Assembly: GCF_000746825.1 (NCBI RefSeq)
Contig: NZ_JQIV01000006.1
Location: forward strand, 2,346,501-2,410,500
Reading direction: 5' to 3'
Origin: Carnobacterium inhibens subsp. inhibens DSM 13024
GTDB taxonomy: Bacteria; Bacillota; Bacilli; Lactobacillales; Carnobacteriaceae
DNA length: 64,000 bases
Shown piece by piece: positions 10,442 to 29,915 of this stretch (positions within the stretch are counted from its first letter, which is position 1; each line of letters opens with the position of its first letter). A model generated the notes under the pieces. That model saw nothing but the letters and a program-made list of their open reading frames with translations, searched no databases and was not told where the DNA came from. Both the position numbers and the translations under genes were made by a program.

Positions 10442-10571
10442 TTTTTGATGAAATATTGTAGAAAGTTATCATTTTGTGTGAAAAATAACGATAGTGAGAT
10501 CGATATATATTCTTTATAAGTTTATGGTAATAAAAAAATGAGCTTATAGTGATAAGAATCTAATTTTATGG

Positions 10572-10600
10572 TTGACATTTATCATTTGTTTTTTTATACT
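10572..10600 (+). promoter_or_regulatory. Consensus promoter of the attenuator leader and amino-acid ABC operon
   Basis: TTGACA (10572-10577), a 17-nt spacer and TATACT (10595-10600): a near-perfect housekeeping promoter. Transcription would start near 10607, about 325 nt before the first structural gene. Confidence 0.85.
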
Positions 10601-10633
10601 AGTAAGAACAAATCGAAATTGTGAGGGATTAGT

Positions 10634-10705
10634 ATGACAAACCATTTAATCAACCAACCACAATTAAATACTTATTACTTTAGCTATTTTAGAAGCTGTT
10701 TGTAG
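10634..10705 (+). CDS. Putative leader peptide, 23 residues, Tyr/Phe-rich
   Basis: ATG at 10634 follows GAGGGAT at a normal distance (10624-10630). The frame has 23 codons and ends TAG at 10703-10705. Codons 14-19 read Tyr-Tyr-Phe-Ser-Tyr-Phe, a high aromatic density for a random frame. There is no Trp codon. A ribosome stalled at 10673-10690 would leave the downstream segment TGTTTGTA free, while one at the stop codon would cover it. This is the geometry of amino-acid-operon leader peptides. It is too short for similarity evidence, so function rests on context. Confidence 0.6.
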   Translation: MTNHLINQPQLNTYYFSYFRSCL

Positions 10706-10850
10706 TCATAATTCATTATGGATACAAACAGGAAACAGAAATGTTTGTATCTATGATGGCTAAAGCAATTTGATTTGCTGATGATTTGCCACATAGAAAT
10801 TATCTAGGTGGTAGATTAATAAAGCTTGTCGTTTATTTTGATATAAAATA

Positions 10851-10896
10851 AACACCCACTTAGATGATGTTTTCTCTAAGTGGGTGTTTTTGTTTT
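10851..10896 (+). terminator. Intrinsic terminator within the leader (attenuator)
   Basis: A 14-bp perfect stem (10851-10864 with 10875-10888), 10-nt loop, then a T-rich tract. It lies between a strong promoter and the first transporter gene, so it must be regulated for the operon to be expressed. Confidence 0.9.
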
Positions 10897-10932
10897 ACCA
10901 GAAAAGTAAGATCAAATTAGGGGGATGAAGAG

Positions 10933-11913
10933 ATGAGAACAAATGGAATGAAGAAAAAAATGCTTTTAGGATTGGCTACAGTTGCAACCGGATTGGTATT
11001 AGGAGCATGTGGCAATACAGAAGAAACAGGAACTACTGAAACAATAAATGTAGGTATATTGCAGTATATGGAACATGATTCTTTGTCTCAAGCACGCAAA
11101 GGATTTATTAGCGAGCTAGAGGACGCAGGGTATCTTGAGGGTGATAATTTAACCTTGAATTATCAAAATGCACAAGGAGATCAAGCAAATTTACAAAGTA
11201 TGAGTGAAAGTTTAGTGGGAGAAAATGATGTGATTTTATCTATTGCAACACCAGCTGCTCAATCATTAGCAACTGTCACACAAGAAGACCCAATTTTATT
11301 TACAGCTGTTACAGATCCAGTAGATGCCGGATTAGTTGCGGATAATGAAGTTCCAGGCGGAAACGTAACAGGAACAAGCGATATGGTTCCGATTGAAGAA
11401 CAAATTGCTTTGCTGTTGTCTCTGGCAAAAGATGCTAAAACCATTGGTATAATTTACAATTCCAGTGAACCTAATTCAAAAATCCAAGCAGATCTAGCAC
11501 AAGAAGCCATTGAAGCTGAAGGCTTGGAAGTAAAATCGTTGACTGTTACAACTACGAATGATGTACAACAAGTAATGACTACGTTGGCTCAAGAAGTTGA
11601 TGCTGTATATATTCCAACAGATAATACATTAGCAAGCACAATGCCGACAGTTGGTGAAATTGCTGAAAAATATCAATTGCCAGTAGTTCCAGGTTCTGCA
11701 GAAATGGTTGAAGCAGGAGGGCTAGCAACTTATGGTATTAACTATGAAGAACTAGGACGTCAAACAGCACAAATGGCCCTTCAAATCATTGAAGAAGGCG
11801 CAGATCCAGCAGAAATGCCAGTTGAAACATCTAACAAATTAGAACTAGTCATTAATGAAGAAGTGGCAAAATCATTAGGTATAGACCCTGAAAGTATTGT
11901 ATTACCCGACTAA
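10933..11913 (+). CDS. ABC transporter substrate-binding lipoprotein, TrpX/PF04392 family
   Basis: Extracellular solute-binding lipoprotein that hands an amino acid to the downstream permease. It has 326 residues with a signal peptide ending in LGAC and lipidated Cys26. The rest is a two-lobed periplasmic-binding fold (NVGILQYMEHDSLSQARKGF at the start, IGIIYNSSEPNS in the hinge region). PF04392 proteins in Lactobacillales are usually annotated as tryptophan/tyrosine binding. The Tyr/Phe-rich leader upstream suggests an aromatic substrate, which is inference. The permease gene follows after 26 nt. GGGGG precedes the start. Confidence 0.85.
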   Translation: MRTNGMKKKMLLGLATVATGLVLGACGNTEETGTTETINVGILQYMEHDSLSQARKGFISELEDAGYLEGDNLTLNYQNAQGDQANLQSMSESLVGENDVILSIATPAAQSLATVTQEDPILFTAVTDPVDAGLVADNEVPGGNVTGTSDMVPIEEQIALLLSLAKDAKTIGIIYNSSEPNSKIQADLAQEAIEAEGLEVKSLTVTTTNDVQQVMTTLAQEVDAVYIPTDNTLASTMPTVGEIAEKYQLPVVPGSAEMVEAGGLATYGINYEELGRQTAQMALQIIEEGADPAEMPVETSNKLELVINEEVAKSLGIDPESIVLPD

Positions 11914-11939: not shown

Positions 11940-12830
11940 ATGGATATTATTTTATCAAGTATTTCACAAGGCTTATTATGGTCTATCATGGCTATCGGCG
12001 TCTATCTTACCTTTAGAATTTTAGATATTGCAGATTTAACTGCTGAAGGAAGTTTCCCATTAGGGGCAGCGATATGTTCTGTTGCCATCGTATCTGGAAT
12101 ATCTCCTTTGGTAGCGAGTTTAATGGCATTGGGTGGAGGAATGATTGCTGGAGTCGTTTCAGGTTTATTACACACCAAGCTTAAAATTCCTGCTCTATTA
12201 ACAGGGATTTTAACCATGACGGCCTTATATTCTATCAATCTCAGAATCTTGGGAAAAGCAAACGTCACTCTTTTAGGACAAGATACATTGATGCGGACTC
12301 TGCAGTCATACGGTTTAGAAAATCGTTTAGCCGTATTGATTGTTGGCGGGGTAGCAGTTGCACTGGTTATTCTAGTGTTGTATTTATTCTTTAGTACAGA
12401 AATAGGATTGGCCATACGTTCTACTGGAGATAATGAAGCGATGAGTGAAGCCAATGGTATTCATACAAATACTATGAAAATTCTAGGATACATGTTGTCT
12501 AATGGTTTGATCTCTTTGTCCGGTGCACTTATTGCCCAAAATAATGGATATGCGGATATTAGCATGGGTATTGGAACAATTGTAATTGGGTTAGCTTCAG
12601 TCATTATTGGAGAAGTTATTTTCCATCGCTTATCTTTTGCAAAACGCTTAGTAACAATTGCTATTGGGTCAGTTGTTTACCGTTTAATCATTGATTTAGT
12701 ACTACAGTTAAACGTAGAACCTCAAGATATCAAGTTATTCTCAGCTATCATATTAGCCATAGCTCTTTCTACTCCATTAATTAAAAAGAAATCAAAAAGA
12801 GTTAGCACGAAAGGAGCAAAAGTACGATGA
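11940..12830 (+). CDS. ABC transporter permease, TrpY type
   Basis: Integral membrane permease of 296 residues with about eight hydrophobic segments and a cytoplasmic region containing the EAA-like sequence STGDNEAMSEANGIHTN. It belongs to the branched-chain-permease-like family paired with PF04392 binding proteins. AAAGGAG precedes the ATG. The next gene overlaps by 4 nt (ATGA), indicating translational coupling. Confidence 0.85.
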   Translation: MDIILSSISQGLLWSIMAIGVYLTFRILDIADLTAEGSFPLGAAICSVAIVSGISPLVASLMALGGGMIAGVVSGLLHTKLKIPALLTGILTMTALYSINLRILGKANVTLLGQDTLMRTLQSYGLENRLAVLIVGGVAVALVILVLYLFFSTEIGLAIRSTGDNEAMSEANGIHTNTMKILGYMLSNGLISLSGALIAQNNGYADISMGIGTIVIGLASVIIGEVIFHRLSFAKRLVTIAIGSVVYRLIIDLVLQLNVEPQDIKLFSAIILAIALSTPLIKKKSKRVSTKGAKVR

Positions 12831-13630
12831 CAGCTATCCTAGAATTGAAAAATATTCATAAAAGTTTTGAAGTAGGAACGGTTAATGAAAATCATGTATT
12901 AAAAGGAATAGATTTGACGATAAAAAAAGAAGAATTTATTACAATTATCGGAGGAAATGGAGCTGGAAAATCAACTTTATTAAATAGTGTAGCTGGAACG
13001 TATATGGTAGATGAAGGTGCGGTCATTATAAATGGTAAGGATTCTACTTATAAGAGGACTAATGAAAGAGCAAAAGATATTGGACGAGTATTTCAAGATA
13101 CTAAGATGGGAACTGCAACACGTCTGACGATTGAAGAAAATTTAGCAGTCGCAGTCAATCGAGGAAAAAAAAGAGGGCTAACGTTAGGTGTAAAAGAGAA
13201 ACAACGGGAATTGTTCAAAGAACAATTAAAATTCTTGGAATTAGGGTTAGAGAACCGGTTGAAAATGGAGGTGGGATTACTGTCGGGAGGACAAAGGCAA
13301 GCTTTAACATTGCTGATGGCGACCATAGTCCCACCAAAATTACTTTTATTAGATGAACATACAGCAGCGTTAGATCCAAAAACTAGTCAAATGGTATTAA
13401 AGTTAACGGATAAAATTGTTCGTGAAAAAAGATTAACTGCAATGATGATTACGCATAATATGGAAGATGCAATTGCTCATGGAACGAGACTAGTCATGCT
13501 TCATAATGGAAAGATAGTAGTAGATGTTTCTGGGGAAGAGAAGAAGAGTCTAACTGTACCAGATTTACTAGCTTTGTTTCAAAAGAACAGTGGCGACACT
13601 GTTACAGAAGATGCATTGATACTAGGGTGA
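12827..13630 (+). CDS. ABC transporter ATP-binding protein, TrpZ type
   Basis: Cytoplasmic ATPase of 267 residues that powers the amino-acid importer. Visible motifs are Walker A GGNGAGKST (about 43-51), signature LSGGQRQ, Walker B LLLLDEHTA and the switch His in MITHNME. The DEHTA after Walker B is typical of this subfamily. It overlaps the permease by 4 nt and is the last gene of the attenuated operon. Confidence 0.88.
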   Translation: MTAILELKNIHKSFEVGTVNENHVLKGIDLTIKKEEFITIIGGNGAGKSTLLNSVAGTYMVDEGAVIINGKDSTYKRTNERAKDIGRVFQDTKMGTATRLTIEENLAVAVNRGKKRGLTLGVKEKQRELFKEQLKFLELGLENRLKMEVGLLSGGQRQALTLLMATIVPPKLLLLDEHTAALDPKTSQMVLKLTDKIVREKRLTAMMITHNMEDAIAHGTRLVMLHNGKIVVDVSGEEKKSLTVPDLLALFQKNSGDTVTEDALILG

Positions 13631-24709: not shown

Positions 24710-25777
24710 TTGGAAATTGAAGAATTTACACAATATGTCATCTCAAAAGCCCAAGAAGTAGGAACTAGCGATATACATATTTTGCCTGAAGAGAAGCAAT
24801 ACCATTTTTATTTTCGAATTGGAGGGAAATTGTGTTTTTGGAATGCAATACCAGATGAAGAAGGCAGACGATTTATATCTTATTTTAAATATTTATCAAA
24901 TATGGACGTTGGAGAGAGGAGAAAGCCGCAAAGTGGAGCAGCACAATTAATGGTTCAAGGAAAAAATATAGCACTTCGTTTTTCAACTATAACCAATTTT
25001 AGAACGCAAGAATCTATGGTCATAAGAATATTAAATCAAACCGTAAACTTATCTTTATCAAAGACAGCTTATTTTAAAAAAGAAGTCAAGTTAATAGAGA
25101 GCTTGGCTCAGTTTAATAGTGGGCTGCTTATTTTTTCAGGACCTGTAGGATCAGGGAAAACTACAACCATGTATCAGCTTGTTCGTGAAAGTTATCATAA
25201 AAACAAACAACAAGTAATTACCGTTGAAGATCCTGTGGAAATTGATGAACCAATGTTTTTACAGACGCAAGTAAATGAAAAAGCGGGAATTACGTATGAA
25301 ACATTATTAAAATCTAGTTTAAGACATCATCCAGATACAATTATTATTGGTGAAATTAGAGATGATGAGACGGCAAAAATGGTGATAAGAGGAGCTTTGA
25401 CCGGTCATTTAATTATTGCTAGTGTACATGCAAAGAATACTGTAGGGGTCATTTCTCGCTTATTGGAATTGGGAGTAACACAAGAACAATTAAAACAAAC
25501 ATTACTTGGAGTAATATTTCAAAAGTTGATTCCAAGGTATTGCTCTTTTTGTAACGGTGATTGTGTTCCCTCATGTGGACACATGCGTATATACGAAAAG
25601 AGAGCCGTTTTATATGAGGTTTTTTCGCGAAAAGAACTGAAACAATATCTCGCTCAGATAAAAACGGAAGAAGAAATTCAAAGAAAACAAACTAGGTCTT
25701 TTAATTTGTTGTTAAGAAAGGCGTATGCATATGGCTACATTACTGAACAAAACTTTATTCACTTTCAGATTCCGTAA
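24710..25777 (+). CDS. comGA: Competence pilus ATPase ComGA
   Basis: Cytoplasmic PilB/GspE-type ATPase that drives assembly of the competence pseudopilus for DNA uptake. It has 355 residues with Walker A GPVGSGKT (144-151), Asp box TVEDPVEI, Walker B IIIGEIRDDETA and the His-box region. A CxxC...C cluster (CSFCNGDCVPSCGH, about 278-291) fits the zinc site of some family members. Start is TTG with AAGGAG upstream. It is the first gene of a seven-gene operon and overlaps comGB by 53 nt. Confidence 0.93.
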   Translation: MEIEEFTQYVISKAQEVGTSDIHILPEEKQYHFYFRIGGKLCFWNAIPDEEGRRFISYFKYLSNMDVGERRKPQSGAAQLMVQGKNIALRFSTITNFRTQESMVIRILNQTVNLSLSKTAYFKKEVKLIESLAQFNSGLLIFSGPVGSGKTTTMYQLVRESYHKNKQQVITVEDPVEIDEPMFLQTQVNEKAGITYETLLKSSLRHHPDTIIIGEIRDDETAKMVIRGALTGHLIIASVHAKNTVGVISRLLELGVTQEQLKQTLLGVIFQKLIPRYCSFCNGDCVPSCGHMRIYEKRAVLYEVFSRKELKQYLAQIKTEEEIQRKQTRSFNLLLRKAYAYGYITEQNFIHFQIP

Positions 25778-26789
25778 AAAAAAATCATCAGCTGTTCAAG
25801 CATCTTTTTTAATAAAATTATCTTCCTTGATGGCAGAAGGCTTTTCGTTAAGAGAGTCTTTACTATTTTTACAAATGATCTTACCAAAAGAAAAACACTG
25901 GATTCAGGCTGTTTTAGAAGAATTGGAAGAAGGGGAACGTTTCGATAGTAGCATAAAAAAGCAAGGTTTTCCTGATCGAGTTTCTGCTCAAATTTATTTA
26001 TCTTTTATTCATGGCAATTTGACAGAAGCTCTAGCGGCAAGTGGAAGCTACTTGGAAGAAAAAGCAAAGCAACAAGGTCAGTTAACAAAATTATTGCAGT
26101 ACCCGTTATTTTTATTGGTTTTTATGATTGGTATTTTAATGGCTATTCGAGTTATGATATTGCCTAACTTTGAACAAATGAATGCAACAAATGGATCTAG
26201 TATCAATAATATTGCGATTGGTTTTATCTATCACTTCCCTACATTATTAGGAATAATTTCTCTAGTAGTGTGTTTAAGCACTCTGATTATCAAAAATCAA
26301 TTAGGAAAACGTACTGCCATTCAACGTACTACTTTTTTTATGAAGATTCCTCTTCTTTCTGCAATGCTAAGACTGTATTATACAAATTTATTTAGTTATG
26401 AATGGAGCCAGTTGTTAAAAAGTGGACTACAAATGAATAAAATTATTGAATTAATGCAAACAAAAGAAACCACTCAGCTTATGCAAGAGGTTGCGAATGA
26501 AATTGAAAAAGAATTGAGAAAAGGACTTAATTTTAAAGAATCAATGAGCCAGTTCACCTTTTTTAATAGTGAACTTGGATTTATTATTATGCATGGTGAA
26601 GCAACTAGTCGTTTAGGAATAGAATTAGCAGTATATGCAAAAGATTGTCAATTAAGATTAATGGATAAGATACAGAAAATCTTTAGTTGGATTCAACCGA
26701 TTATTTTTTTAGTGATTGCTTTTTTTATTATGTGTGTTTATTTAGCGTTATTATTACCGACGTTTACGATGATGGAGGAGATTCTATGA
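25725..26789 (+). CDS. comGB: Competence pilus membrane platform ComGB
   Basis: Inner-membrane platform of the competence pilus, GspF/PilC fold, 354 residues. Hydrophobic segments lie near 125-148, 165-185 and 322-345. It overlaps comGA by 53 nt, so the functional start may be the second ATG (25731) or later. comGC begins on its stop codon (ATGA). Confidence 0.9.
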   Translation: MHMATLLNKTLFTFRFRKKKSSAVQASFLIKLSSLMAEGFSLRESLLFLQMILPKEKHWIQAVLEELEEGERFDSSIKKQGFPDRVSAQIYLSFIHGNLTEALAASGSYLEEKAKQQGQLTKLLQYPLFLLVFMIGILMAIRVMILPNFEQMNATNGSSINNIAIGFIYHFPTLLGIISLVVCLSTLIIKNQLGKRTAIQRTTFFMKIPLLSAMLRLYYTNLFSYEWSQLLKSGLQMNKIIELMQTKETTQLMQEVANEIEKELRKGLNFKESMSQFTFFNSELGFIIMHGEATSRLGIELAVYAKDCQLRLMDKIQKIFSWIQPIIFLVIAFFIMCVYLALLLPTFTMMEEIL

Positions 26790-27103
26790 GATGTAAAGAG
26801 AAATTGAATCAAAAAGGTTTTACACTAATTGAAATGGTTATGGTTCTTTTTATCATTTCAGTATTGATGCTGCTTATTGTTCCAAACGTAGTAAAACAAA
26901 AAAATCAAATTGACACTCAAGGTACAGAAGCCTTAGTGACAGTCATTCAAACTCAAGTTGAACTATATGAATTGGACGGTCATACAGAAGCCGCTACCTT
27001 TTCTGCTTTGGAAAGTCAGGGTTATTTATCTGCTAAACAAGTTAAACAAGCAACAGCTAAATCGATTAGTATCACAAATGGTATTGTGAGTTCGAGTAAA
27101 TAA
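26786..27103 (+). CDS. comGC: Major competence pseudopilin ComGC
   Basis: The major pilin of the DNA-uptake pilus, 105 residues. The leader ends at KG before FTLIEMVMVLFIISVLMLL, with Glu at +5 and the hydrophobic assembly helix. The frame is open 99 nt further upstream, but GATGGAGGAG and the 4-nt overlap with comGB set the start at 26786. The prepilin peptidase ComC is not in the window. Confidence 0.92.
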   Translation: MRCKEKLNQKGFTLIEMVMVLFIISVLMLLIVPNVVKQKNQIDTQGTEALVTVIQTQVELYELDGHTEAATFSALESQGYLSAKQVKQATAKSISITNGIVSSSK

Positions 27104-27105
27104 TA

Positions 27106-27543
27106 ATGAGAGAGTTAGATGAAAAAGGGATGTTGCTGGTTGAGTTGGTCCTTGTTCTATTCATTGCAGCTGCATTACTATTCATTCCAACAATATATAC
27201 TAAGCAAACTAAAATTCATTTAGAAAATCAATTATTTGTTGAAGAATTACAAAGCCAACTAACAGCTATTCAAAACTATGCTGTTTTGTCTGGAGAAGTA
27301 ACCGCAATGATTGTGTCATCTCAACACAAGTCGATTCAATTTAGAGTTATTGATGATGAACAGAATGAACTGAATGGAGTGATTTACTTACCTGAGACAG
27401 TCACCACTCCTACATATAAAGTTTATCATTTTAATGCGTATAGTGGGAATTTACGTAATTTTGATACATTAGTTTTTTTTATAAATAATGAAAGACACAC
27501 TATGACATTTCAGTTAGGAAGTGGCCGTTATAAATGGCAATAA
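27106..27543 (+). CDS. comGD: Competence minor pseudopilin ComGD
   Basis: 145-residue minor pilin with the type IV prepilin signal DEKG then MLLVELVLVLFIAAALLF. Met at +1 instead of Phe is a minor variant; Glu+5 is kept. The start lies 3 nt after the comGC stop and the end overlaps comGE by 10 nt. It probably forms part of the pilus tip complex. Confidence 0.85.
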   Translation: MRELDEKGMLLVELVLVLFIAAALLFIPTIYTKQTKIHLENQLFVEELQSQLTAIQNYAVLSGEVTAMIVSSQHKSIQFRVIDDEQNELNGVIYLPETVTTPTYKVYHFNAYSGNLRNFDTLVFFINNERHTMTFQLGSGRYKWQ

Positions 27544-27872
27544 AAAAAATAAACCAAAAAGGATATTTGTTGATTGAAAGTTTAGTAGCATTTTCTATTT
27601 TAAGTATATGCATTGTTATTTATCTTCCATTTGTAGTAGGTATGTTAAAAAAAGTTGATGCTGAAAAAACAGCTGTTGAAATGTACCGTATCCAGTATGA
27701 ACAACTACAAAAAATCGAACAGCAACAACCGATTGATAAAATATGGGAGACCGGAGGAAAAGTATTTACGATTGAACAAGCAACCACTACTACTCAAAAG
27801 GGAGTAAGGATAAAATATGGAGAAGAAGAAATTTTTACTGAAATCCTTTCTTTTCAAAAATCCAATCCTTAA
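27534..27872 (+). CDS. comGE: Competence minor pseudopilin ComGE
   Basis: 112 residues with prepilin signal NQKG then YLLIESLVAFSILSI, Glu at +5. The gene overlaps comGD by 10 nt and comGF by 56 nt. Assignment rests on position and the signal, since ComGE sequences are poorly conserved. Confidence 0.8.
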   Translation: MAIKKINQKGYLLIESLVAFSILSICIVIYLPFVVGMLKKVDAEKTAVEMYRIQYEQLQKIEQQQPIDKIWETGGKVFTIEQATTTTQKGVRIKYGEEEIFTEILSFQKSNP

Positions 27873-28323
27873 TCAAAAAGGTTTTACGCTATTAGAAGCT
27901 TTAGCAGCTTTATTTATTTTAATGCTATGTATTTCTCTTTTAAGCTTTGTAACGACACAATACCATTCCATACGCAAGCAAACTTTTGAAGATCGACAGC
28001 TTGAGTGGCATATGTTTTTGAATCAACTGGACTATAGTTTTGAAGGTTTAATTTTTGTGAAAGCAAAATCTAATGAGCTTCAGTTTAAAGTGCTAGATGA
28101 AAAAGGAGAACTCAAAGAAACGATTTATTATGAACGGTACTATGAAATGGTCAGACGTCGAACTGGATCTGGGGGGCACCATCCTATGTTGATGAAAGTC
28201 AAATCCATTGATTTTAGCCAAAACGATTCATTTGTAGAAATAACCGTAACCTTTTTGAACCAAGAAACCTATCATGCACAAATATCTATCGAGAATAACT
28301 TAGAAGGTGTTCAAAATGAATGA
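27817..28323 (+). CDS. comGF: Competence minor pseudopilin ComGF
   Basis: 168 residues with prepilin signal NQKG then FTLLEALAALFILML. The length and the Arg/Tyr-rich C-terminal half match ComGF. It starts inside comGE and overlaps comGG by a few codons. Confidence 0.87.
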   Translation: MEKKKFLLKSFLFKNPILNQKGFTLLEALAALFILMLCISLLSFVTTQYHSIRKQTFEDRQLEWHMFLNQLDYSFEGLIFVKAKSNELQFKVLDEKGELKETIYYERYYEMVRRRTGSGGHHPMLMKVKSIDFSQNDSFVEITVTFLNQETYHAQISIENNLEGVQNE

Positions 28324-28675
28324 AAAAGGAGCTGTACTGCCGTCAGTAATGATTTTTGTATTGCTTATGAGTGTTGCCCTTTTAGGAACTAATCAAATTT
28401 TCAAGAATCAAATGAACCAATTAAGAATGACAAAACACTATTATGAAGTTGAGAGTATGCTGATCCTTTCAAAAATGGAACTCAATAGCCAACTTGATTT
28501 AAATAAAAATTTAGAAAAAGGGACCGTATTATTTACTGATGGAACGGTAACTATTCAAAAAAAAGGAGATAATACATTCAATTTGGAAGGGAAACTTAAA
28601 AATATTTTTTCAAAACAGCTAACAGTTCAACTGGAAAAAAAGTCTACTGAAAGTATAGAAAATACAGATGAATAG
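28316..28675 (+). CDS. comGG: Competence minor pseudopilin ComGG
   Basis: 119 residues from ATG 28316 with AAGGTG upstream; a GTG three codons earlier (28307) is possible. The N-terminus MNEKGAVLPSVMIFVLLMS is prepilin-like but lacks Glu at +5, as in other ComGG proteins. Last gene of the comG operon; no methyltransferase or acetate kinase gene follows, unlike in many streptococci and enterococci. Confidence 0.78.
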   Translation: MNEKGAVLPSVMIFVLLMSVALLGTNQIFKNQMNQLRMTKHYYEVESMLILSKMELNSQLDLNKNLEKGTVLFTDGTVTIQKKGDNTFNLEGKLKNIFSKQLTVQLEKKSTESIENTDE

Positions 28676-28853: not shown

Positions 28854-29915
28854 GTGACTAAACTAAGTAAGTTACGCGAAGGCATGAAAAAAAGAGGGAT
28901 AGATGCATTATTAGTGACTAGCCCTTATAATTTACGTTATATATCCAATTTTACGGGAACAACTGGTTTGAGTGTGATTACGCTAGATAAAGCATACTTT
29001 GTAACGGATTTTAGATACACTGAACAAGTGGCAACTCAAGCAGTAGGATTTGAAATTGTTACAAATGCAGGACCTATTTTCGATGAAGTAGCTAAAATAG
29101 TAGATGGAAATAGTATTGAAGCATTAGGTTTTGAACAAGATTTTGTAACTTTTAGTACTTATGAATTATTGGAACAAATTATTTCTAGTGAATTGATTCC
29201 AATAAGAGGACTGATGGAAGAGCTTAGAGAAGTTAAAACGGAAGCAGAAATCAAAATAATCAAAAAAGCTTGTTCTATTTCTGATGCAGCATTCAATTTT
29301 ATCTTAGGTGAAATAAAACCTGGAATGACAGAAATCGAAGTAGCTAACTTATTAGATTTTCATATGCGTGGCTTAGGAGCAACCGGTGTTTCTTTTGAAA
29401 CAATTGTAGCTAGTGGAGTCCGTTCAGCAATGCCTCATGGAGTTGCTAGTCCTAAAAAAATTGAAACTGGAGACTTTGTAACGATTGATTTCGGTTGCTA
29501 TTATGAAGGCTATGTTTCTGATATGACTAGAACAATTGCTGTAGGGGAACCAAGTGAAAAGTTGAAAGAAATCTATGCTATTACACTTGAAGCACAATTA
29601 AAAGTGATTGACGCAGCTAAACCAGGAATGTCAGGTGTTCAATTAGATGCTATTGCACGGGATCATATTGCAAGTTATGGTTATGGAGAAGCTTTTGGAC
29701 ATTCAACTGGTCACGGAATTGGATTAGAAATCCATGAAGGACCAAATGTTTCTAGACTAGCAGAAAAATTATTTGTGCCAGGGAATGTGATTACGAATGA
29801 ACCCGGAATTTACCTTCCAGGATTTGGTGGAGTAAGAATCGAAGACGATTTGATTATCACTGAAACAGGGAACGAAGTGATTACTCATTCTCCAAAAGAA
29901 CTTATCATTTTATAA
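28854..29915 (+). CDS. pepP: Xaa-Pro peptidase, M24B family (PepP/YqhT-like)
   Basis: Metalloenzyme of 353 residues that removes N-terminal residues before proline. It has a creatinase N-domain and a catalytic domain with DFGCYYEGYVSDMTRT (two Asp), HSTGHGIGLEIHE (His), TNEPGIY and RIEDD (Glu). GTG start with AAGGGGCG upstream. Immediately upstream of efp, as yqhT-efp in Bacillus; a functional link through Pro-rich proteins is plausible but not shown. It is a paralogue of the pepQ product in this window. Confidence 0.9.
   Translation: MTKLSKLREGMKKRGIDALLVTSPYNLRYISNFTGTTGLSVITLDKAYFVTDFRYTEQVATQAVGFEIVTNAGPIFDEVAKIVDGNSIEALGFEQDFVTFSTYELLEQIISSELIPIRGLMEELREVKTEAEIKIIKKACSISDAAFNFILGEIKPGMTEIEVANLLDFHMRGLGATGVSFETIVASGVRSAMPHGVASPKKIETGDFVTIDFGCYYEGYVSDMTRTIAVGEPSEKLKEIYAITLEAQLKVIDAAKPGMSGVQLDAIARDHIASYGYGEAFGHSTGHGIGLEIHEGPNVSRLAEKLFVPGNVITNEPGIYLPGFGGVRIEDDLIITETGNEVITHSPKELIIL

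Follow-up and report, generated by a model that had tools for sequence, protein, structure and literature searches.

A candidate seven-segment relay attenuator with a Tyr/Phe leader peptide precedes a putative aromatic amino-acid importer in Carnobacterium inhibens

The leader RNA upstream of an ABC importer of Carnobacterium inhibens subsp. inhibens DSM 13024 is probably a ribosome-mediated transcription attenuator for a Phe/Tyr transporter that works as a kinetic domino. It lies in a stretch of 64,000 nucleotides (contig NZ_JQIV01000006.1, positions 2,346,501 to 2,410,500, forward strand; hereafter the window), whose first letter is position 1 of the coordinates in Table 1. Transcription should start at about 10607, 3' of a promoter whose hexamers have similar counterparts in four of the five relatives from the genus that were compared (the fifth was read separately). 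An earlier note, made from the letters alone, had read here a leader ORF with a Tyr/Phe-rich run and a terminator; the ORF is confirmed with its control codons in frame, and the lipoprotein gene begins about 44 nt past the terminator stem. Elsewhere in the window, a second stretch coding for YYFSYF (29085-29102, minus strand) runs antisense within a gene that by eye is peptidase-like and was rejected as chance, and the translations of a run of genes at 24710-28675 look by eye like those of a competence pilus (comG) operon.

Table 1. Features of the leader and of the genes behind it (window coordinates).
Feature	Position	Strand	Basis or remark
Promoter TTGACA-17 nt-TATACT	10572..10600	+	sigma-70 type, 11/12 consensus matches
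Shine-Dalgarno GAGGG of leader ORF	10623..10627	+	sequence
Leader peptide ORF, 23 codons, MTNHLINQPQLNTYYFSYFRSCL and stop	10634..10705	+	homologous ORFs in 115 leaders collected, window included
Control codons Tyr-Tyr-Phe-Ser-Tyr-Phe (YYFSYF, codons 14-19)	10673..10690	+	
Segment 0, 5' arm of helix A, inside control codons	10678..10693	+	pairs with 10750-10765
Segment 1	10696..10711	+	proposed to lie under a ribosome that has reached the stop codon
Segment 2	10713..10731	+	pairs with 1 or 3
Segment 3 with 3' extension pairing with segment 0	10742..10765	+	2:3, 3:4, helix A
Segment 4	10785..10797	+	4:5 pairing
Segment 5	10799..10815	+	5:6 pairing
Segment 6, terminator 5' arm and partner of segment 5	10850..10868	+	
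Segment 7 (10872-10889) and U-tract, 3' part of intrinsic terminator	10872..10896	+	
ABC substrate-binding lipoprotein, Tyr/Phe-leader TrpX paralogue	10933..11913	+	PF04392
ABC transporter permease	11940..12830	+	PF02653
ABC transporter ATPase	12827..13630	+	PF00005

Seven consecutive segments, each able to pair with the next, had been proposed in the earlier note, and duplex energies and shuffles bear out all six helices where they had been placed. With the segments as first drawn, the energies are -9.5 kcal/mol for 1:2, -22.4 for 2:3, -11.9 for 3:4, -8.1 for 4:5, -13.9 for 5:6, and -22.6 for the terminator 6:7, whereas pairings that skip one segment are weak (-0.2 to -6.6 kcal/mol). Three helices are longer than first given, namely, 1:2 (10696-10711/10716-10731), 4:5 (10785-10797/10803-10815), and 5:6 (10799-10811/10856-10868). 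A simple pattern scan for terminators found none, 6:7 being unlisted. The chance of such a chain was assessed from the best series of six helices ending in a U-tailed hairpin, with stacking energies summed. The window leader reaches 125.1, a value attained by none of 500 dinucleotide shuffles, which peak at 76.6, and by no fixed tile among 440 taken from the two strands of the window. Its minimum free energy has a z-score of -7.96, and none of 200 shuffles is equally low. The number of helices alone is not significant, as a chain of eight weak helices at a lenient cut-off is matched by 59 of 400 shuffles, and still by 18 of 400 when the U-tail is required. It is the strength of the chain, rather than the number of helices, that is unusual.

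The comparison covered 115 leaders, 55 from loci with TrpX-like proteins and 60 from matches to the Rfam model RF02863, the two sets partly overlapping. The six-helix relay scores above all 40 of a leader's own shuffles in 102 of the 115 and fails this test in 13. Eighty-nine non-redundant leaders, picked by homology and not by pairing and with relay-test failures included, were aligned; an earlier alignment of 75 sequences, selected on the presence of the relay, was discarded as biased. Each helix was compared with registers in which its 3' arm was slid by 1 to 4 columns, maxima being quoted, and with a tree-based null in which substitutions are re-dealt along the tree. The percentage of cells paired, the number of both-side changes, and the number of branches with canonical double changes are, respectively, 86%, 68, and 21 for 1:2 (slid: 30-51%, 17-26, at most 3); 86%, 43, and 15 for 2:3 (slid maxima: 52%, 29, 4); 94%, 16, and 4 for 3:4 (slid: at most 56%, at most 10, 0-1); 78%, 112, and 26 for 4:5 (slid: 29-41%, 23-67, at most 4); 85%, 133, and 22 for 5:6 (slid: 30-48%, 32-65, at most 8); and 86%, 284, and 88 for 6:7 (slid maxima: 52%, 111, 13). 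Helix A, a seventh helix described below, has 94% of cells paired, 37 both-side changes, and 10 double-change branches (slid: 37-49%, 5-18, at most 3).

Pairs with p <= 0.01 under the tree-based null number 7/16 in 1:2, 4/17 in 2:3, and 2/10 in 3:4 (best slid registers 3, 4, and 1), 4/13 in 4:5, 8/13 in 5:6, and 13/16 in 6:7 (best slid 1 each), and 4/15 in helix A (best slid 3/15). In this test 2:3 only equals its best slid register and helix A hardly exceeds its own, so that the support for these two helices comes from double changes and arm swaps and not from the pair counts. When arms were swapped between species, the own arm paired better in 81% of cases for 1:2, 65% for 2:3, and 58% for 3:4, in 82%, 84%, and 96% for 4:5, 5:6, and 6:7 (6:7 in 82 leaders), and in 74% for helix A; non-neighbor controls gave 46-58%, with 1:4, 2:5, and 3:6 near 50% and 4:7 at 58%. 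The arms of 3:4 are nearly invariant and their swaps do no better than the 4:7 control, and this helix appears to be supported mainly by near-universal complementarity, with little covariation. Across these sequences, covariation is strong for 1:2, 4:5, 5:6, and 6:7 and moderate for helix A and 2:3. A strict all-pairs test (G statistic with APC, tree null) returned three significant pairs, all within 6:7; the power of such tests would be lowered because most segments have two partners, which fixes their letters. In 76 of the 89 leaders a U-tract stands behind 6:7 (of the 13 exceptions, 12 end too early to show one), but only 20 have one behind 4:5.

Helix A involves the control codons themselves. 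In the minimum-energy fold of the window leader, these codons (CUUUAGCUAUUUUAGA, 10678-10693) pair with 10750-10765 at -15.8 kcal/mol and so enclose hairpin 1:2. The constancy of the peptide end FSYFR (3' codons TTT AGC TAY TTT AGA) can be traced to this helix, because it constrains the RNA. Two Lacticaseibacillus loci have the peptide end FFFGFFG in place of YYFSYFR, and in one of them (L122) helix A consists of CUUCGGC with GCCGAAG instead of CUUUAGC with GCUAAAG, the partner having changed along.

The sequences suggest both the substrate of the importer and the following order of events. When charged tRNA-Tyr or tRNA-Phe is scarce, the ribosome would stall on the control codons, mask segment 0, and leave segment 1 free; each emerging segment would then take the next free one, giving 1:2, 3:4, and 5:6, with segment 7 left single and transcription reading through. 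With ample supply, a ribosome at the stop codon would mask segment 1, leading to 2:3, 4:5, and 6:7 and to termination. By footprint arithmetic, a ribosome at codons 14 to 16 would leave segment 1 free, whereas one at the stop would cover it. If no ribosome is present, 1:2 and helix A together would use up segment 3, leading to 4:5 and 6:7, a state that is off by default. Since 4:5 mostly lacks a U-tract and 6:7 has one, the ribosome signal would in most leaders reach the terminator only via 5:6, along a route that leads through 3:4 or 4:5 to 5:6 or 6:7. As 2:3 and 4:5 have the greater stability, the ON branch can only be kinetic; 1:2 and 3:4 would form first and persist, as in ordinary co-transcriptional folding.

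Masked folding, in which the nucleotides under the ribosome are blocked and the transcript ends after segment 6, reproduces part of this scheme. In the window leader, helix 5:6 has 0 bp in the naked transcript, 9.0 bp in the stalled state, and 6.8 bp in the completed state. The stalled state exceeds the naked one in 48 of the 89 leaders and exceeds the completed one by at least 3 bp in 35, the reverse occurring in 2; the 54 leaders without a 3-bp advantage of the stalled over the completed state include that of the window. When the transcript is cut before segment 6, equilibrium folding prefers 4:5 to 3:4 in all three states (86 to 88 of 89 leaders), and for the window leader 2:3 wins over 1:2 also under the stalled mask. 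Equilibrium folding alone does not yield the ON state, and as proof of a switch it is partly successful. None of the sequence-level outcomes that the earlier note had named as refuting it was seen: relatives keep the ORF, helices covary, and no T-box model is among the Rfam matches up to E = 10. The alternating relay of that note is supported, but its ON state is not an equilibrium state and needs the order of emergence, and helix A, which would give the default-off state when translation is absent, had been overlooked.

A shorter attenuator is an unlikely alternative, in which the ribosome governs only 1:2, 2:3, and 3:4, the downstream hairpins are separate tandem or back-up terminators, and 5:6 is a relic of terminator duplication. 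It would account for the U-tract behind 4:5 in 20 of the 89 leaders and for the related Trp class described below, which ends at 4:5 (U-tract in 30 of 30), and segment 4 does resemble 6 and segment 5 resemble 7, although this likeness is also required if all three pairings hold. In the other 69 leaders, however, 4:5 has no U-tract, and 5:6 covaries (8 of 13 pairs, 22 double-change branches, 84% of swaps). At position 10807, moreover, 67 of 88 leaders have the pair of 4:5 disrupted but 78 of 89 retain that of 5:6, and 5:6 continues into the loop of 4:5.

Sensing by the nascent peptide is known from TnaC, which responds to tryptophan in this way. For the present leaders it is distinctly improbable that the peptide, with QLN before the aromatic residues in many of them, binds Tyr/Phe or aids the stall as the sensor, since helix A explains the 3' codons at the RNA level, Tyr and Phe interchange, and induction by the free amino acid would be the wrong direction for an importer. 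Leucine is nevertheless the commonest residue at position -6 (58 of 98 distinct leaders) and is written with four codons (CTG 27, TTG 16, TTA 9, CTA 6), and QLN is also found in part of the Trp leaders. This pattern may reflect a role of the nascent chain in stalling.

The leader is present in all six genomes of the genus that were searched, its own included. TrpX-like proteins occur in 18 of 18 genomes of the family, and the nearest of 79 loci fetched from the genome collection is that of Carnobacterium jeotgali. At E <= 0.001, RF02863 matches 215 of 395 genomes of the order, from 52 of 80 genera, and none of 14 control genomes; 99 of the 395 have matches above the gathering cut-off. At E <= 1e-4 it is found in 13 of 151 sampled genomes of the class, 11 of these belonging to the order. 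Sixty loci were fetched, hand-picked among the RF02863 matches listed with strong matches and many genera first, and all 60 look like 5' leaders and have a Tyr/Phe ORF. The next long ORF encodes a binding protein in 40 of them (39 TrpX-like and 1, in L215, of another family), AroE in 16, PheA in 2, AroC in 1, and DAHP synthase in 1, as sorted by sequence motif, with six representatives checked with Pfam. The genes behind the leaders thus belong to aromatic amino-acid metabolism, the substrates of the importers being putative. Comparison of the sequences establishes the ORF with its Tyr/Phe codons, the terminator and its U-tract, and the aromatic genes downstream of relatives.

From the side of the proteins, 108 TrpX-like loci were read, of which 55 have a Tyr/Phe leader and 53 do not; the latter comprise 9 with a Trp-type leader and 44 with neither. 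The 44 leaderless proteins (L081-L106 and others) come mainly from Streptococcus suis and other streptococci, and no T-box was found at the gathering cut-off in those leaderless loci that were searched with Rfam. One genome (G390) has five Tyr/Phe leaders (L196-L200), located before three binding proteins, aroE, and aroC, and in Isobaculum melis (L080) RF02863 matches twice, at a distance of about 1.3 kb. In L215 (395-2470), a Tyr/Phe leader stands before the gene for a 692-aa protein that matches family-3 solute-binding domains three times, and this leader could serve to predict which amino acid the importer takes up. A search for a plasmid copy of the Enterococcus-type leader gave none.

The same genome encodes a paralogous importer, the leader peptide of which ends in NSSWQSQDR and the leader RNA of which scores 43.5 bits against the trpB motif (RF04312), under the cut-off of 59. 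RF04312 matches 114 of 198 genomes of the order at E <= 0.001, over the cut-off in 41, and the 14 controls contain one match, below the cut-off, in Lactococcus lactis. Thirty trpB-motif loci (L236-L265), the best-scoring among the RF04312 matches listed, were read, and all 30 have a short ORF with Trp codons that ends 9 to 21 nt before the motif; under stricter rules, this ORF is found in 29 of these 30 best-scoring loci and in 13 of 1,500 shuffles. The peptides often end in W-Q-[S/N/T]-W-R-R. The U-tract lies at the end of the match, after 4:5, in all 30 loci, so that the Trp class resembles the same relay with two segments fewer.

The binding proteins separate along the same line. In a tree of 169 of them, 31 of the 32 with a Trp leader fall into one clade (support 0.995), which also holds one leaderless protein and none of the 95 with a Tyr/Phe leader; the window lipoprotein lies outside it. 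Against the NCBIfam model NF041285 (TrpX), the window lipoprotein scores 354.2 bits, below the cut-off of 390, as do four of four Tyr/Phe-leader relatives (319.5 to 344.7 bits), whereas five of five Trp-paralogue proteins score 442.8 to 466.5 bits. By these comparisons, the importer genes begin with a TrpX paralogue of the Tyr/Phe-leader kind and not with TrpX itself.

The Trp class also bears on a third alternative, a metabolite riboswitch or protein-controlled antiterminator in which translation has no role, as proposed for the trpB motif. Narunsky et al. 2024 (PMC11109978) list this motif as a strong riboswitch candidate and leave a protein factor or an attenuator open. The Trp leader ORF in all 30 of the best-scoring loci argues against it, and the trpB motif is very probably, as judged from these loci, a Trp leader-peptide attenuator. 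The window leader carries, in addition to its Tyr/Phe ORF, the masking helices, and for this RNA a riboswitch or antiterminator is very improbable. The two hairpins of RF04312 align to 2:3 and 4:5 of the window (10715-10823, 30.0 bits), which is far below the cut-off of 59; the model lacks segments 6 and 7, and the codons are Trp. In some genomes, e.g., G084 and G125, its match overlaps that of RF02863.

RF02863 (sRNA_2410) is homologous to the window leader. Positions 10680-10875 span the full model with 59.6 bits (E 2.9e-9; cut-off 61), and relatives score up to 212.5 bits. The beginning of the model falls within the leader ORF of the window, and its end coincides with the first part of segment 7. 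Its consensus structure includes helix A, 1:2, and 4:5, but the family is typed as an sRNA gene, with one structure and no ORF or alternative pairing. The entry, named Enterococcus sRNA 2410, implies a trans-acting small RNA, and a 195-nt RNA with two Northern-blot transcripts is listed for E. faecium in PMC5593968. A terminated leader would look alike, however, and as all 60 fetched loci combine a Tyr/Phe ORF with a gene for a binding protein or for the aromatic pathway, it is highly improbable that action in trans is what this RNA is for, although its terminated product could conceivably have a second function. A T-box, the usual control of many Firmicute amino-acid genes (PMC2494555), is the least probable identity and is refuted at the sequence level by Rfam searches, which gave no match in the window at the gathering cut-off, no T-box model among the 28 matches with E <= 10 at 10500-11000, and none in 20 related loci at gathering nor in 10 loci up to E = 0.5.

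The relay also occurs in a condensed form. In the same genome, the aro operon has its own leader, with a peptide ending in QLNNYYFSFFMRKSIEAKDF (L009:1464-1710; L266-L271). This leader is without segments 1 and 2, and its ORF runs on through segment 3, with ten codons beyond the aromatic run versus 1 to 4 in most others. Its pairings reach -13.8 kcal/mol for 0:3, -14.3 for 3:4, -16.3 for 4:5, -10.2 for 5:6, and -22.8 for 6:7, and its skip pairings -3.1 to -4.1 kcal/mol; the chain finder, which allows one mismatch and no bulge, missed 3:4 and 4:5 as such. The leader was detected by DNA match and not by RF02863, which matches this genome once. Its DNA is full length in five of six genomes of the genus and nearly so in one other genome, and the peptide was read in five of six of those loci. 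The operon consists of a gene for a 178-aa protein (L012:2790-3326), which has no Pfam match at E <= 1e-8, followed by DAHP synthase (Pfam) and by aroB, aroA, and aroC (these three identified by eye). A ribosome that completes this peptide would cover segment 3 directly, giving the same chain with another entry point.

Taken together, these leaders are on balance likely to form a Lactobacillales superfamily of common origin, with five-segment Trp and seven-segment Tyr/Phe relays and the condensed aro form that enters at segment 3. Such relays would have grown when the terminator hairpin was copied and its older version turned into an inner domino.

The classic trp, phe, and his attenuators of enterobacteria have three or four segments, and the window leader shares with them the leader peptide, the stalled versus completed ribosome, and the choice between terminator and antiterminator. 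It differs in having seven segments and a control-codon helix, and therefore more pairing steps, and none of the classic-type attenuator leaders in Rfam matched the window. In the erm leaders of Gram-positive bacteria, a stalled ribosome also drives multisegment alternation, with several alternating hairpins as in the window leader, but these leaders are induced by antibiotics and mostly act on translation. The Lactococcus leu/phe leader (RF01743), also an amino-acid leader RNA from the same bacterial order, found no support as a match, with 17.7 bits for the window where the cut-off is 70.

The earlier note had regarded an extended relay in a Firmicute as new. Leader-peptide attenuators as such are known from Firmicutes; they are described for hisZ/hisS* of Bacillus (PMC2965389), for his genes in three Firmicute lineages (PMC9413887, which also describes the enterobacterial his attenuator), and for ilv-leu of Staphylococcus aureus (PMC5794164), and in Acholeplasma a Phe uORF (uORFC-13-1) precedes aroF, encoding DAHP synthase (PMC8632094). 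These concern other genes or lineages, and the available parts of the four papers describe no extended relay. The literature searched, with subscription journals mostly outside it and some sources accessible only in part, contains no Tyr/Phe leader-peptide attenuator in Lactobacillales and no extended relay; within that literature, the Tyr/Phe family, its length, and its breadth are new. The Tyr/Phe relay is real and widespread, and apparently undescribed.

If this reading is true, one order-dependent chain transmits the signal of the ribosome across more than 150 nucleotides and has an inherent off state for the case that no ribosome arrives. It would give a function to an Rfam "sRNA" that has relatives in more than half of the genomes searched in the order, and it would settle the trpB motif, a riboswitch candidate, as a leader-peptide attenuator. 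It also predicts the substrates, Phe/Tyr versus Trp, of two importer families that now stand near one name. The relay would show over what distance a series of re-pairing steps can hand on a co-transcriptional signal, and its natural variants with fewer segments would make the rules of the relay directly testable.
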